Of a stretch of DNA of 36,746 bases, positions 4,940-32,319 are shown piece after piece; position 1 is the stretch's first letter; each line of letters opens with the position of its first letter. Origin of the DNA: Microcoleus sp. CAN_BIN18 (GTDB taxonomy: Bacteria > Cyanobacteriota > Cyanobacteriia > Cyanobacteriales > Microcoleaceae). Location of the stretch: assembly GCA_026786085.1 (NCBI GenBank), contig JAJAYT010000156.1:1-36746 (forward strand), in the 5' to 3' direction. Under the pieces are notes generated by a model. It was not told the origin of the DNA and did not search any database. It worked only from the letters and a program-made list of their open reading frames with translations. A program made the position numbers and the translations under genes.

Positions 4940-6022
4940 TTACTTTATCGTGGCTAGCTGAGCCTCAGCATAAATAAACTGTCCCAAAGCATTGGCTTTC
5001 CGAGAAGGCTGAGCCAAGTGAGCCTTAAGATTGGCATCTTTAAGCAAGGGTTGCAGCACCTCCCAGAAAAACTCGCCGCCGCCGCCAGTCAGAACCACAT
5101 CCGTCACCCGTTCAGGCAGCCACTGCACCAAACGTTCGGATAGTTCGTTAGCGAAAGCCTCGCGTAAATCCTTAATAATCGGATCTAAATTAGTCGGCTT
5201 AGTCGCTCCTCTCGGACGGTAGAAACGCTGGCCTTCCGGTTTATTCACCGCTTCAAGTAAAGACAGAGATTGAGGGTCTGCCCCCGGAATCTTTGAGGCA
5301 ACTTGTTCGTAGAACTTGTTCATTGCGAAGGAATCGCTTCTAGAAGCCGCCCGGGCGAACCGGAAACGATCGACCATTAACAAATCGGTAGTTTGGTGTC
5401 CGATATCGACAACAGCCACCGACAGTTCTGGCAACTCCGGCGAAAACTCCTTGTTGTCTTGAGCCTCGCACCAAATCAGACTGCCGAATCCTTCCGGCAT
5501 CACCCAAACATGGCGGATGTCAATTTCCAAACGCTCACCCCGGTACACCACAACGTGGGGAGAGCGCAGTTGGCTGATAATCTCTTCCTTTTCCTTCTCA
5601 AACTGATCCTGCGAATAAAACGGCAAACCTAGCACCACTGCCATTTCGCCTTTCATCTGGAAATATCCAGCACAGGAAAAAACCTTAACCAAAGCATCTA
5701 CTACTTTCGATTGGTCTGCGCCACCGAGATTAGCGCCAAAGTCTGCCGCCAGTTGGCCGATGGCGTACCCTTTGCCCTGGTACTCCAGCCACATATCCAA
5801 CAGAGGGTCTGTTGCTTTTGACTCAAAGCTGCCGCCCCGCACCTTTTCCACGGGCATAGCAGCCACGTTGGCAGGGATGAAAACAACGCTGTTTGGGTTG
5901 CGACTTACGCAAGCTTTAGTTGCAGTACGACCCAAATCAGCACTAATAATCGATTTGTGAGAAGCGATCTTAGTCTGCTGCGTCAGCATAGCCGAATTAG
6001 GAACAAGCTGTCTAGTTGTCAT
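4940..6022 (-). CDS. Actin-like ATPase of the ParM/StbA (MamK/Alp) type
   Basis: The 360-residue protein has the three nucleotide-binding signatures of the actin/Hsp70 ATPase fold: phosphate-1 ADLGRTATK (Asp29), phosphate-2 VVDIGHQTTD (Asp206) and adenosine loop VVLTGGGGEFF (312-316). It most resembles ParM/StbA proteins, which polymerise with ATP to push plasmid copies apart. The neighbours MgtE and FtsH are chromosomal, so this appears to be a chromosomal relative; such homologues occur in filamentous cyanobacteria with no settled function. The start ATG overlaps an ATGA sequence just beyond the end of the structured RNA element at 6043-6433, so its promoter may lie in or beyond that element. 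No clear Shine-Dalgarno is seen. Confidence 0.85.
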   Translation of the reverse strand: MTTRQLVPNSAMLTQQTKIASHKSIISADLGRTATKACVSRNPNSVVFIPANVAAMPVEKVRGGSFESKATDPLLDMWLEYQGKGYAIGQLAADFGANLGGADQSKVVDALVKVFSCAGYFQMKGEMAVVLGLPFYSQDQFEKEKEEIISQLRSPHVVVYRGERLEIDIRHVWVMPEGFGSLIWCEAQDNKEFSPELPELSVAVVDIGHQTTDLLMVDRFRFARAASRSDSFAMNKFYEQVASKIPGADPQSLSLLEAVNKPEGQRFYRPRGATKPTNLDPIIKDLREAFANELSERLVQWLPERVTDVVLTGGGGEFFWEVLQPLLKDANLKAHLAQPSRKANALGQFIYAEAQLATIK

Positions 6023-6042
6023 CAGAAAAATGGGTAGAAACC

Positions 6043-6059
6043 CCGTCCTTATAGGACGG
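6043..6059. other. CCGTCCT/AGGACGG hairpin, likely transposon-end stem-loop
   Basis: CCGTCCT (6043-6049) pairs with AGGACGG (6053-6059) around TAT. On the plus strand it is followed by CTTTATTATTTTTT and looks like a terminator; on the minus strand it lies at the 3' side of the structured RNA locus, 20 nt before the parM-like ATG. Similar CCGTCC...GGACGG stems flank the right ends of many cyanobacterial IS200/IS605-type elements, so I read it as the right end of a deleted element. Confidence 0.55.
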
Positions 6060-6091
6060 CTTTATTATTTTTTGGATTTACTAAGCAACTT

Positions 6092-6433
6092 GGGATTGGT
6101 TGGTTCGGTGTGCTTTTGTGTTGCACTCTCAACGGGACAGTTACCGTTTCAAGCCTCCCAATCCTGTACGCATAGTATTTTGCTCGCGCGATCGAGCCTA
6201 TGAAAGCGGGGTAAAGTTAGCTTGTCGGTCAATGTTTTCTGAGCTTTTTAGACTTGCAGCACTGTTTCAGTTACCTGGAAACTGTTTAACTGCAAATGAC
6301 ACTCTCAGGAGACTTCGCACTCTCCAGGGTGTCGTGACTCAAAAAACGTAGTCAGTTAAGACGATAGCTGGTCAGAACGGCTTGCTAGATTTCTCTTTCA
6401 AGCCTCATGCCGTCAGGGCTGAGGTTCCTGACG
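6092..6433 (-). ncRNA. Structured RNA, copy 1 (candidate stand-alone HEARO/IscB-type omega RNA)
   Basis: This region aligns end to end with 31870-32211, and no protein frame is shared. Conserved blocks include GGTGTCGTGAC and ACGTAGTCAGTTAAGAC (plus-strand sense). Four helices are kept although their bases differ between copies. In this copy: GGATTGG 6093-6099 with CCAATCC 6158-6164; GTGC 6110-6113 with GCAC 6123-6126 (9-nt loop); AACGG 6131-6135 with CCGTT 6144-6148 (8-nt loop); CCTCA-t-GCC 6403-6411 with GGC-TGAGG 6417-6424. Minus is the proposed transcribed strand, with CGTCAGGAAC at the 5' end, because HEARO/IscB guide RNAs begin after a variable 5' guide and this copy ends in a transposon-like hairpin. 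No IscB or other RuvC-HNH gene is nearby. RNA status is well supported; the family name is inference. Confidence 0.75.
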
Positions 6434-6717
6434 CCTTATCCCTTGACACTGCCGCGCTTAAAGACAGTGGGTTTTGCGGCGATTCTTCTAACTTTACCTA
6501 GATCGGTATTGAAATCAGCACCAAACATTATATTCGGGACGATCGCCCTTATGGTAACTAACCTAACTTTTTCTCGATCGCCACAATAATAATGTCTGTT
6601 GCCTGAGAGTGCATTGTTAAGTTAAATTTAGTAAAGATTCTGAGTGTAAACTTTTGTCGCACTCCGCCGACACCGCTAATTTACCCGATCTGTCACCAAT
6701 TCAAGGCACCCGCATTT
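6434..6717. other. Interval between RNA element and ftsH
   Basis: About 280 bp with no credible gene. It has a GCCGC (6451-6455)/GCGGC (6476-6480) stem just outside the RNA element. If the RNA is an IscB-type guide RNA on the minus strand, the bases immediately above 6433 would encode its guide. The ftsH promoter is probably within 6590-6717; no clear Shine-Dalgarno precedes the ftsH ATG. Confidence 0.4.
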
Positions 6718-31056: not shown

Positions 31057-31509
31057 TTATGAATTTTGGCGAGAATCGCTAGAGGGAGGATGCCACCCTG
31101 CTCTAATCCATAAACGACGAGCTTTGATAATCGCTCTTTCATTATGATATCGATCGTTAAGGTCTAATCGATCGCAAGTTCCCCTACCTGTTGGAGTAAT
31201 ACCGATTATTTCTAAACCATCTACAGACCAGATAAAATGATCGAACCATTGCTGTTGACGTGGATTAAATAAAGTTACTTCCTGTTCAGTTTCTGGGTCA
31301 GTACCAGTAATAAAGTTATAGCGATTATTATTACAGCGATGACAAGCTAAAGCTAAGTTTTCTAGTTCATCACTACCACCAATTGATCGAGGTAAAATAT
31401 GATCCATCGTAAATAGAGTAGAGCTACTTTCTTCGGCAGAATGGCAATACTCACAAAAAAAACTGGCCCTACTTCTTACTAAATTTCGAGTAGTAGGGTT
31501 TATAGACAT
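31057..31509 (-). CDS. HNH endonuclease
   Basis: The 150-residue protein has the HNH fold with zinc: CEYC (Cys19, Cys22), TMDHILPRSIGGSDELENLALACHRCNNNR (Asp36-His37, Asn51, Cys56, Cys59, Asn61). It contains only the HNH domain; no RuvC is present, so it is not IscB. It overlaps the upstream 81-residue gene by 10 bp, so the two are coupled. Small-ORF/HNH pairs like this occur widely in cyanobacteria with unknown role; a toxin-antitoxin or mobile-element role is conceivable. Confidence 0.9.
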   Translation of the reverse strand: MSINPTTRNLVRSRASFFCEYCHSAEESSSTLFTMDHILPRSIGGSDELENLALACHRCNNNRYNFITGTDPETEQEVTLFNPRQQQWFDHFIWSVDGLEIIGITPTGRGTCDRLDLNDRYHNERAIIKARRLWIRAGWHPPSSDSRQNS

Positions 31510-31745
31510 GAAGCTGCTATAACTTTAGCGTTAATTAAGGTGAAAATTCGATCCAGTTCTAGTAAACTTGCTAGTTCTACAACCTCTTCTGAAGTCAAAA
31601 GATTAGCCTTTTTTCCCTCAGCTAGTTCTTCCAATCTAGCTTGCAGATTTTCGGTAAATTTGAATAAGCAAAGATTTCTGACTTTCTGAATCGATATGTC
31701 ACTATCAATCCAGTAAGATGGTTGTACCATAAGTTCAGCTATCAT
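31500..31745 (-). CDS. Small partner protein of the HNH endonuclease
   Basis: The 81-residue protein (MIAELMVQPSYWIDSDISIQ...LLTSEEVVELASLLELDRIFTLINAK) is helical in its second half. It overlaps the HNH gene start by 10 bp. I do not recognise its family. Its position just upstream of HNH and its size would suit an inhibitor or a DNA-targeting partner. The start is 125 bp downstream of the structured RNA copy 2 on the same strand. Confidence 0.65.
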   Translation of the reverse strand: MIAELMVQPSYWIDSDISIQKVRNLCLFKFTENLQARLEELAEGKKANLLTSEEVVELASLLELDRIFTLINAKVIAASCL

Positions 31746-31869
31746 AAAAAAAAACTCGGTAAGTGGGAAACTCAGGGTCTTTACACTTGAGAGGAAAACG
31801 ACCAGGCGGTTTCAACACATTCGACTACGCGAGCGTGACCGCCGCCTTGAATCTTTCCATTACCGCCGG

Positions 31870-32211
31870 GCGAGTTGTTCGATCAGGTGTACTTTTGTAG
31901 TGTACTTTCGATGGGACAATTACCATCTCAAACCTTACAACTCGCGATCGCATAATGTTTGCTCGATTAGAGCCTCCCTTGCGGGGTGATGTTAGCTTCG
32001 CCAAGGTTATAAAGGCTTGTTGAGCTTGCAACACTGTTCCAGTGACTTTAGAACTTTTTAATTACAAACGACAGAGCGGGGAACTAGCTTCGCATTCCGG
32101 GGTGTCGTGACCTAAATAACGTAGTCAGTTAAGACTTGGGCTGGTCAGAATAGCTTGCTTCGAGACTTGCTCGCGACCAAGCTCAGTGTCTTTAGACCTG
32201 AGTTCCTGACG
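31870..32211 (-). ncRNA. Structured RNA, copy 2 (candidate stand-alone HEARO/IscB-type omega RNA)
   Basis: This diverged homologue of 6092-6433 keeps the same helices with different bases: GCGAGTTGT 31870-31878 with ACAACTCGC 31937-31945; GTAC 31889-31892 with GTAC 31902-31905 (9-nt loop as in copy 1); GATGG 31910-31914 with CCATC 31923-31927 (loop GACAATTA against GACAGTTA in copy 1); CTCAG-t-GTCT 32182-32191 with AGAC-CTGAG 32194-32202. Unpaired blocks GGTGTCGTGAC and ACGTAGTCAGTTAAGAC are identical in both. On the minus strand it begins CGTCAGGAAC. It precedes the small-ORF/HNH pair on the same strand by 125 bp. The copy-1 end hairpin (CCGTCCT) is absent here. Confidence 0.75.
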
Positions 32212-32319
32212 GTGATTTCCTTACTCAATTACTAATGTAAACCAATCACTATACCATCAAATTGAGTTGATTTAAAATTGTTTGAGTTAATTTTTATATA
32301 ATTTATCCACCAAAGTTAT

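Follow-up and report, generated by a model that had tools for sequence, protein, structure and literature searches.

Two loci on a contig of Microcoleus sp. CAN_BIN18 are probably non-autonomous OMEGA (IS200/IS605-type) elements that would use IscB in trans and in which a structured domain, here called D, has replaced the iscB gene. Both lie in one stretch of 36,746 nucleotides that was analyzed as a whole (the window; contig JAJAYT010000156.1), and each is organized in the order left end with HEARO omega RNA, D, right end, and ATGA. The parts of the two elements and their immediate surroundings are as follows.

4940..6022, minus strand: parM-like gene (actin-like protein), with the element in its upstream region (Pfam ALP_N, E = 6.1e-16)
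6019..6022, minus strand: ATGA, right flank of copy 1, putative TAM and start codon of the parM-like gene (from the junction and the ORF)
6023-6432, minus strand: whole element, copy 1, up to the ATGA at which the next ORF starts
6023..6080, minus strand: right end of copy 1, type B (resembles the sequence after the iscB ORF of contig C385)
about 6081..6209, minus strand: domain D of copy 1, in the place of the iscB ORF (113.6 bits with model R1, which was built from sequences that include both window copies of D, so that their scores are not independent)
6211..6432, minus strand: HEARO/omega RNA of copy 1, with the ATGC..AGT loop lost (RF02033, 108.4 bits, E = 1.2e-21)
6433..6448, minus strand: predicted 16-nt guide of copy 1, equal to the left flank (adjoins ATGA in empty sites)
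6527..6532, minus strand: TATAAT, a possible -10 box of the native parM promoter that would read through the element (from upstream sequences of genus orthologs)
31742..31745, minus strand: ATGA, right flank of copy 2, putative TAM and start codon of an 81-aa ORF (from empty sites in 11 genus relatives)
31746-32210, minus strand: whole element, copy 2, up to the ATGA at which the next ORF starts
31746..31858, minus strand: right end of copy 2, type A (resembles the sequence after the iscB ORF of contig C19)
31859..31985, minus strand: domain D of copy 2 (model R1, 122.5 bits, subject to the same dependence)
31986..32210, minus strand: HEARO/omega RNA of copy 2, with the loop motif kept (RF02033, 138.4 bits, E = 6.1e-29)
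32211..32226, minus strand: predicted guide of copy 2, equal to the left flank (compared with 11 empty sites)

An Rfam scan of the window returned two matches above the gathering score (83 bits for RF02033), both to HEARO and both on the minus strand, in agreement with the first-pass annotation, which had read 6092-6433 and a second copy at 31870-32211 as an IscB-type omega RNA on that strand. The four helices that had been reported to differ between the two loci in a compensating way are all present in the sequence, and they belong to two separate structures. CCTCA/TGAGG is part of the first hairpin in the HEARO match, whereas the other three fall outside the Rfam model and belong to D: GGATTGG/CCAATCC closes the domain, and AACGG/CCGTT and GTGC/GCAC form two hairpins within it. 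The interval proposed for copy 1 holds HEARO in its upper two thirds (6211-6432), but the element proper spans 6023-6432, with D below HEARO.

The window copies share with HEARO/IscB omega RNAs a whole-model match above gathering, the 5' position of the guide, and the strand, and two sister copies of the window loci have an IscB gene directly 3'. They differ in having no iscB ORF and an extra 3' domain, and copy 1 also lacks one conserved loop. HEARO RNA is described as carrying a reprogrammable 5' spacer (PMC9755519), and stand-alone omega RNAs as able to function with IscB (PMC9581776, citing Altae-Tran 2021). Because stand-alone copies are a known form according to the latter, the lack of an adjacent iscB does not exclude HEARO membership; the arrangement there, a guide RNA without a nuclease gene and a nuclease elsewhere in the genome, is also that of the window copies. 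HEARO and stand-alone omega RNAs are thus already known, and it is D and the junction at the start codon that find no mention in the literature searched, a partial selection whose scope excluded the original HEARO and OMEGA papers.

The rest of the genome, surveyed as a 6.03-Mb assembly in 668 contigs, holds 24 HEARO matches, 19 of them above gathering, and only two IscB genes (contigs C19 and C385), so that most HEARO copies stand alone. Each IscB gene lies directly 3' of a HEARO, and both encoded proteins contain the RRXRR and HNH domains; that of C19 shows a relationship to IscB structures. Further copies and a candidate trans-acting IscB, which had been suggested as worth a search, are therefore both present in the genome, and the earlier description of copy 1 as having no IscB nearby is accurate, as the window contig encodes no RRXRR protein and the genome's two are at C19 and C385. 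Across the family, HEARO matches occur in 43 of 59 genomes, our own counted. What follows HEARO in the 24 own copies is iscB in two, D in 13 (some cut by contig ends) and, by reading, tandem hairpins in five and truncated or unclear sequence in four. The tandem hairpins, a third kind of content for this slot, mostly have CAACCATA-type loops (L003, L006, L010, L013, and L023). Different right ends follow the two iscB genes, and the stand-alone copies with ends available have the C19 type, the C385 type, or a related form (by eye and pattern), with left ends that start GTCAG (compared by eye). Judged by eye, these ends are common to the stand-alone copies and the full iscB elements of the same genome.

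D was absent from 20 sampled iscB loci in relatives and from the genome's own iscB loci. In 19 of the 20 relatives' loci the iscB ORF starts 17-30 nt after HEARO, and in the remaining one it starts 6 nt after. Since iscB loci are without D and their ORF begins so soon after HEARO, D takes up the position that the iscB gene has there. The idea that D derives from a leftover iscB 3' end was rejected, given its absence from these same loci.

On comparative grounds, D is a real RNA structure, and the earlier suggestion of selection for RNA structure holds in two sets of sequences. Among 11 D copies from our own genome, the three helices (22 pairs) are paired in 95.9% of cells, compared with 25-43% for slid partners. 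Nine pairs have changed on both sides, a number reached in 2 of 500 shuffles, and on four of five measures the observed value lies above nearly all shuffles; further pair types were not above shuffles in this set (357 of 500 reached the observed value). In 53 distinct D sequences from other cyanobacteria, whose alignment was fitted to the model and is biased in its favor to that extent, 94.3% of cells are paired versus 29-40% for slid partners, 19 of 28 pairs are doubly changed, and none of 500 shuffles matches on any of the five measures. Support for the fold comes from this comparison, since folding of single sequences is only mildly better than that of shuffles (z = -1.8 and -2.6).

IS200/IS605-type elements move as single strands, and D sits in a mobile element of this family, which makes it conceivable that D is a DNA structure used in single-strand transposition and not an RNA. 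We regard this as very improbable. The pairs of D include 167 G-U against 21 A-C in the model-fitted alignment, where fitting to an RNA model favors G-U somewhat, and 22 against 5 in the own-genome alignment; such an excess would be predicted for a functional RNA of the minus strand. The 20 sampled iscB loci, moreover, have no D.

Other identities for D were considered and rejected. D has no Rfam match above gathering in the window, and a permissive search with the D of the L008 copy gave four matches at E up to 10, all far below gathering, which led us to set aside a known RNA. A coding sequence was rejected by eye because a frame of about 30 codons, open in many copies, is interrupted by a stop in L014 and by a frameshift in L012, and because helix changes compensate at the RNA level yet alter codons. 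A short ORF starting from a conserved TATGCG was also rejected by eye, as its length and frame vary. Separately, the HEARO tail ACATTACC might conceivably pair with the D end GGTAATG; this pairing is nearly invariant, with mismatches in copies that have ATCACC.

D is distributed well beyond the window. A search with the D model, our own genome counted in each sample, detected it in 24 of the 39 genomes that made up one draw of relatives and, within the family, in 38 of 59. A pattern scan of a genome collection recovered at least 106 stretches with the D pattern; among the matches listed, the organisms of 80 such stretches are all cyanobacterial and include Nostocales. Searching 54 of these 80 listed loci with the D model gave 55 matches, 53 of them distinct, and a HEARO match, in some cases partial or weak, lies near D in 39 of the 43 loci among these 54 that were checked for it. 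A second set, referred to below as the 80 D loci, consists of 80 of the 124 model matches in the 39-genome draw (own genome included), with 77 from relatives and three at contig ends of our own genome (L092, L101, and L111). HEARO is directly 5' of D in 65 of these 80. The other 15 comprise seven with a diverged RNA, one cut by a contig end, and seven with a decayed omega RNA or none.

The diverged RNA scores 25-32 bits against Rfam HEARO in five loci, among the matches listed, and all seven loci match a profile that was built from those same seven. Seven loci that encode an RRXRR protein about 350 aa long were fetched from relatives, and in all seven this RNA sits directly 5' of the protein. 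The one such protein examined lacks an HNH domain, and its residues 3-305 (of 351) match the structure of DtIsrB. These RRXRR proteins are IsrB-like, and D follows both IscB-type and IsrB-type omega RNAs. The likeness to IsrB elements thus lies in the diverged omega RNA, which precedes these proteins and also precedes D in seven loci; the window copies, in contrast, are IscB-type, and both RRXRR proteins of our own genome have HNH. Beyond weak partial matches, the diverged RNA was not found in the 20 iscB loci or in the own copies. Among genus relatives, IsrB-like genes with the diverged omega RNA directly 5' are located at L331-L336 and L343.

The insertion sites connect these elements to start codons. 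Orthologs of the parM-like gene are present in 24 genus relatives, and of the 25 genus genomes that have the gene (own counted), 18 show an empty site. An empty site reads TGTCAAGGGATAAGGC, or nearly so, followed by 37 bp that open with ATGA and then by ATGACAACT, which is the start of the parM-like gene. The first-pass annotation had placed the guide just above 6433, and the empty sites fit this position: the 16-nt left flank of copy 1 adjoins ATGA in the 18 empty relatives, with an exact match in ten, one mismatch in seven, and two mismatches in one. In the window, as in G019 and G023, the element meets its left flank at the first ATGA and its right flank at the second, which is the start codon, and the 37 bp are missing. 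With junctions at different ATGAs and 37 bp lost, the insertion of copy 1 was not a simple precise event. The loss in these three genomes looks like the outcome of a shift of the right end onto the start codon. Other elements or remnants, with both right-end types, end at the same parM-like start codon in G007, G014, G022, and G025 (L202-L205), so this site has been hit or refilled more than once. L204 also contains a tract with four mismatches to the copy 1 guide plus ATGA. Two distant parM-like orthologs that are not among the 25 (L206 and L207) have neither HEARO nor D.

At copy 2, the window reads CACC, element, ATGA, and all 11 genus relatives read have CACC or AACC directly followed by ATGA. 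A fixed tetranucleotide therefore borders the insertion, without target duplication. The flank of copy 2 differs from the 16 bases before ATGA at three positions in nine of the 11 empty sites, at four in one, and at six in one, and the longer left flank is recognizable by BLAST in 3 of 11 relatives only. A third gene, which we take to be GH57-like, has an element of one of two kinds in 5 of 25 genomes and none in 20, where the gene starts with ATGA in 14 and ATGG in six.

Right ends were recognized by pattern in 68 of the 80 D loci, all at ATGA, a result that is partly built in because the pattern requires ATGA or GTGA; the 12 loci left out have unrecognized right ends, and that of L118 was probably set wrongly. 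The ATG opens an ORF of at least 60 codons at 53 of these 68 right ends, which are not independent because several loci are orthologs of one insertion, versus 46 of 217 ATGA sites in the window, a control that was not matched for intergenic position. A much higher control comes from the gene-dense loci around the parM-like gene, where such an ORF starts at 243 of 539 ATGA sites. Ten of the 24 own copies have a right end recognized by pattern, and seven of these open an ORF of at least 60 codons.

Because ATGA contains ATG, many insertions lie precisely before start codons and leave the reading frame intact. The recognition motif of DtIsrB is NTGA, and TTGA and ATGA targets are cut, according to PMC9581776. 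Plausibly, then, the nuclease recognition motif and the host start codon are the same bases, with the motif of the genome's own IscBs read from the flank only. If the flanking motif is the start codon, this would explain how the elements can be numerous without gene breakage, and guide RNAs lying within host-gene leaders could be co-opted for regulation.

These start-codon junctions also suggest a different role for D, in which D and the right end act mainly in cis as a leader that enables expression of the downstream gene after insertion at its start codon and that, in some genes, the host retains once the omega RNA is degraded by mutation. We consider this possible but doubtful. In its favor, right ends open long ORFs more often than window ATGA sites do, but some iscB elements without D also end before long ORFs. 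The clearest case is the third gene. In L154 (G018), the 5' part of HEARO upstream of this gene has been replaced, by sequence that we take to be like the end of a group II intron, and D and the right end are kept. Between L151 and L154 (G002 and G018), D and the right end are identical at 188 of 191 positions compared with 99 of 116 four-fold sites (Fisher p = 1e-5), and between L148 and L154 the figures are 187 of 191 and 105 of 117 (p = 0.003); D itself retains 96 of 98 bases in L154 versus L148 or L151. The conservation of D where HEARO has been destroyed argues for a function of D apart from the omega RNA. Other comparisons point the other way. L143 and L154 (G011 and G018), at the same gene, show no difference (170 of 189 versus 104 of 117). 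For L153 and L157, at what is presumably gatB, D is identical at 102 of 107 positions and four-fold sites at 112 of 115, and for L098 and L138 the counts are 104 of 125 and 85 of 102. In the parM trio, HEARO and D are conserved about alike. D has outlasted HEARO so well at one gene only, and exchange between copies is possible there.

Between these two roles, D as a stabilizing or separating 3' module of the guide RNA has the edge over D as a leader, although we hold this without much confidence. D stands where the gene would be and comes after IscB-type as well as IsrB-type RNAs, which fits a module of a stand-alone guide RNA. In the mechanism that we propose, transcription would pass through the element toward the downstream gene, probably from the promoter of that gene. 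The omega RNA, with flanking DNA transcribed as its 5' guide, would bind IscB made by the full elements, and the complex would cut a chromosome without the element at guide plus ATGA; repair from the occupied chromosome would then restore the element. D most likely would stabilize or end the stand-alone omega RNA at the point where the iscB message would otherwise begin, and this is the least supported step. A scan for consensus promoters found none, including any for an omega-RNA promoter of the element's own near 6440-6455, and the TATAAT at 6527..6532 was not picked up by it. Within the right end of copy 1, a CCGTCC/GGACGG hairpin (6043-6059) is terminator-like on the plus strand; 0.8 such sites are expected by chance.

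To our knowledge, what lets stand-alone omega RNAs work without a nuclease gene of their own is not settled. D is a concrete candidate for that role, as a conserved domain that occurs in the absence of the nuclease gene and behind guide RNAs of both the IscB and the IsrB type. We put forward only tentatively the wider proposal that D is an undescribed cyanobacterial RNA module that replaces the nuclease gene in solo IscB and IsrB omega-RNA elements and enables them to borrow a nuclease in trans, with the start-codon motif making the elements leaders of host genes. If this is true, elements with D would show how transposon guide RNAs can naturally give rise to RNA-guided gene control. A possible parallel exists in Limnospira maxima, whose HEARO RNA is given as 343 nt in PMC12286853. 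This exceeds the 211 positions of the Rfam model and is near the 342 bases that the first-pass annotation had marked for copy 1; compared by length only, the extra length may be due to D.

Whether the window copies are active bears on all of the above, and both loci could instead be inert remains of mobile elements, with covariation inherited from active elements elsewhere. This we think rather unlikely. Copy 1 is without a conserved loop and several copies are broken in relatives, as would be expected of remains. Canonical TnpA was not found in our own 668-contig assembly, where the sole Y1 match is a 203-aa frame at 32 bits; Y1 (TnpA) matches are strong in many genus relatives. The lack of a canonical TnpA makes present-day mobility of the elements only putative. 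Against inert remains, both IscB genes are open, the family is numerous, as the HEARO count among the 59 genomes indicates, and the HEARO of copy 2 keeps its fold at 138 bits together with its loop motif.

For non-autonomous elements served by IscB in trans, the two window copies may differ in their present state. The ATGC..AGT loop is strongly conserved in the consensus of the HEARO model and, by pattern, is present in 22 of the 24 own HEARO copies, including copy 2, and also in the G019 ortholog of copy 1. Copy 1 itself lacks the loop, and its HEARO score is the second lowest of the 19 above gathering. With this loop lost, copy 1 may be inactive as a guide RNA and guide nothing any more, whereas copy 2, from its sequence, looks intact. 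Downstream of copy 2, at 31057-31509 on the minus strand, lies an ORF for a 150-aa HNH endonuclease without an RRXRR match.
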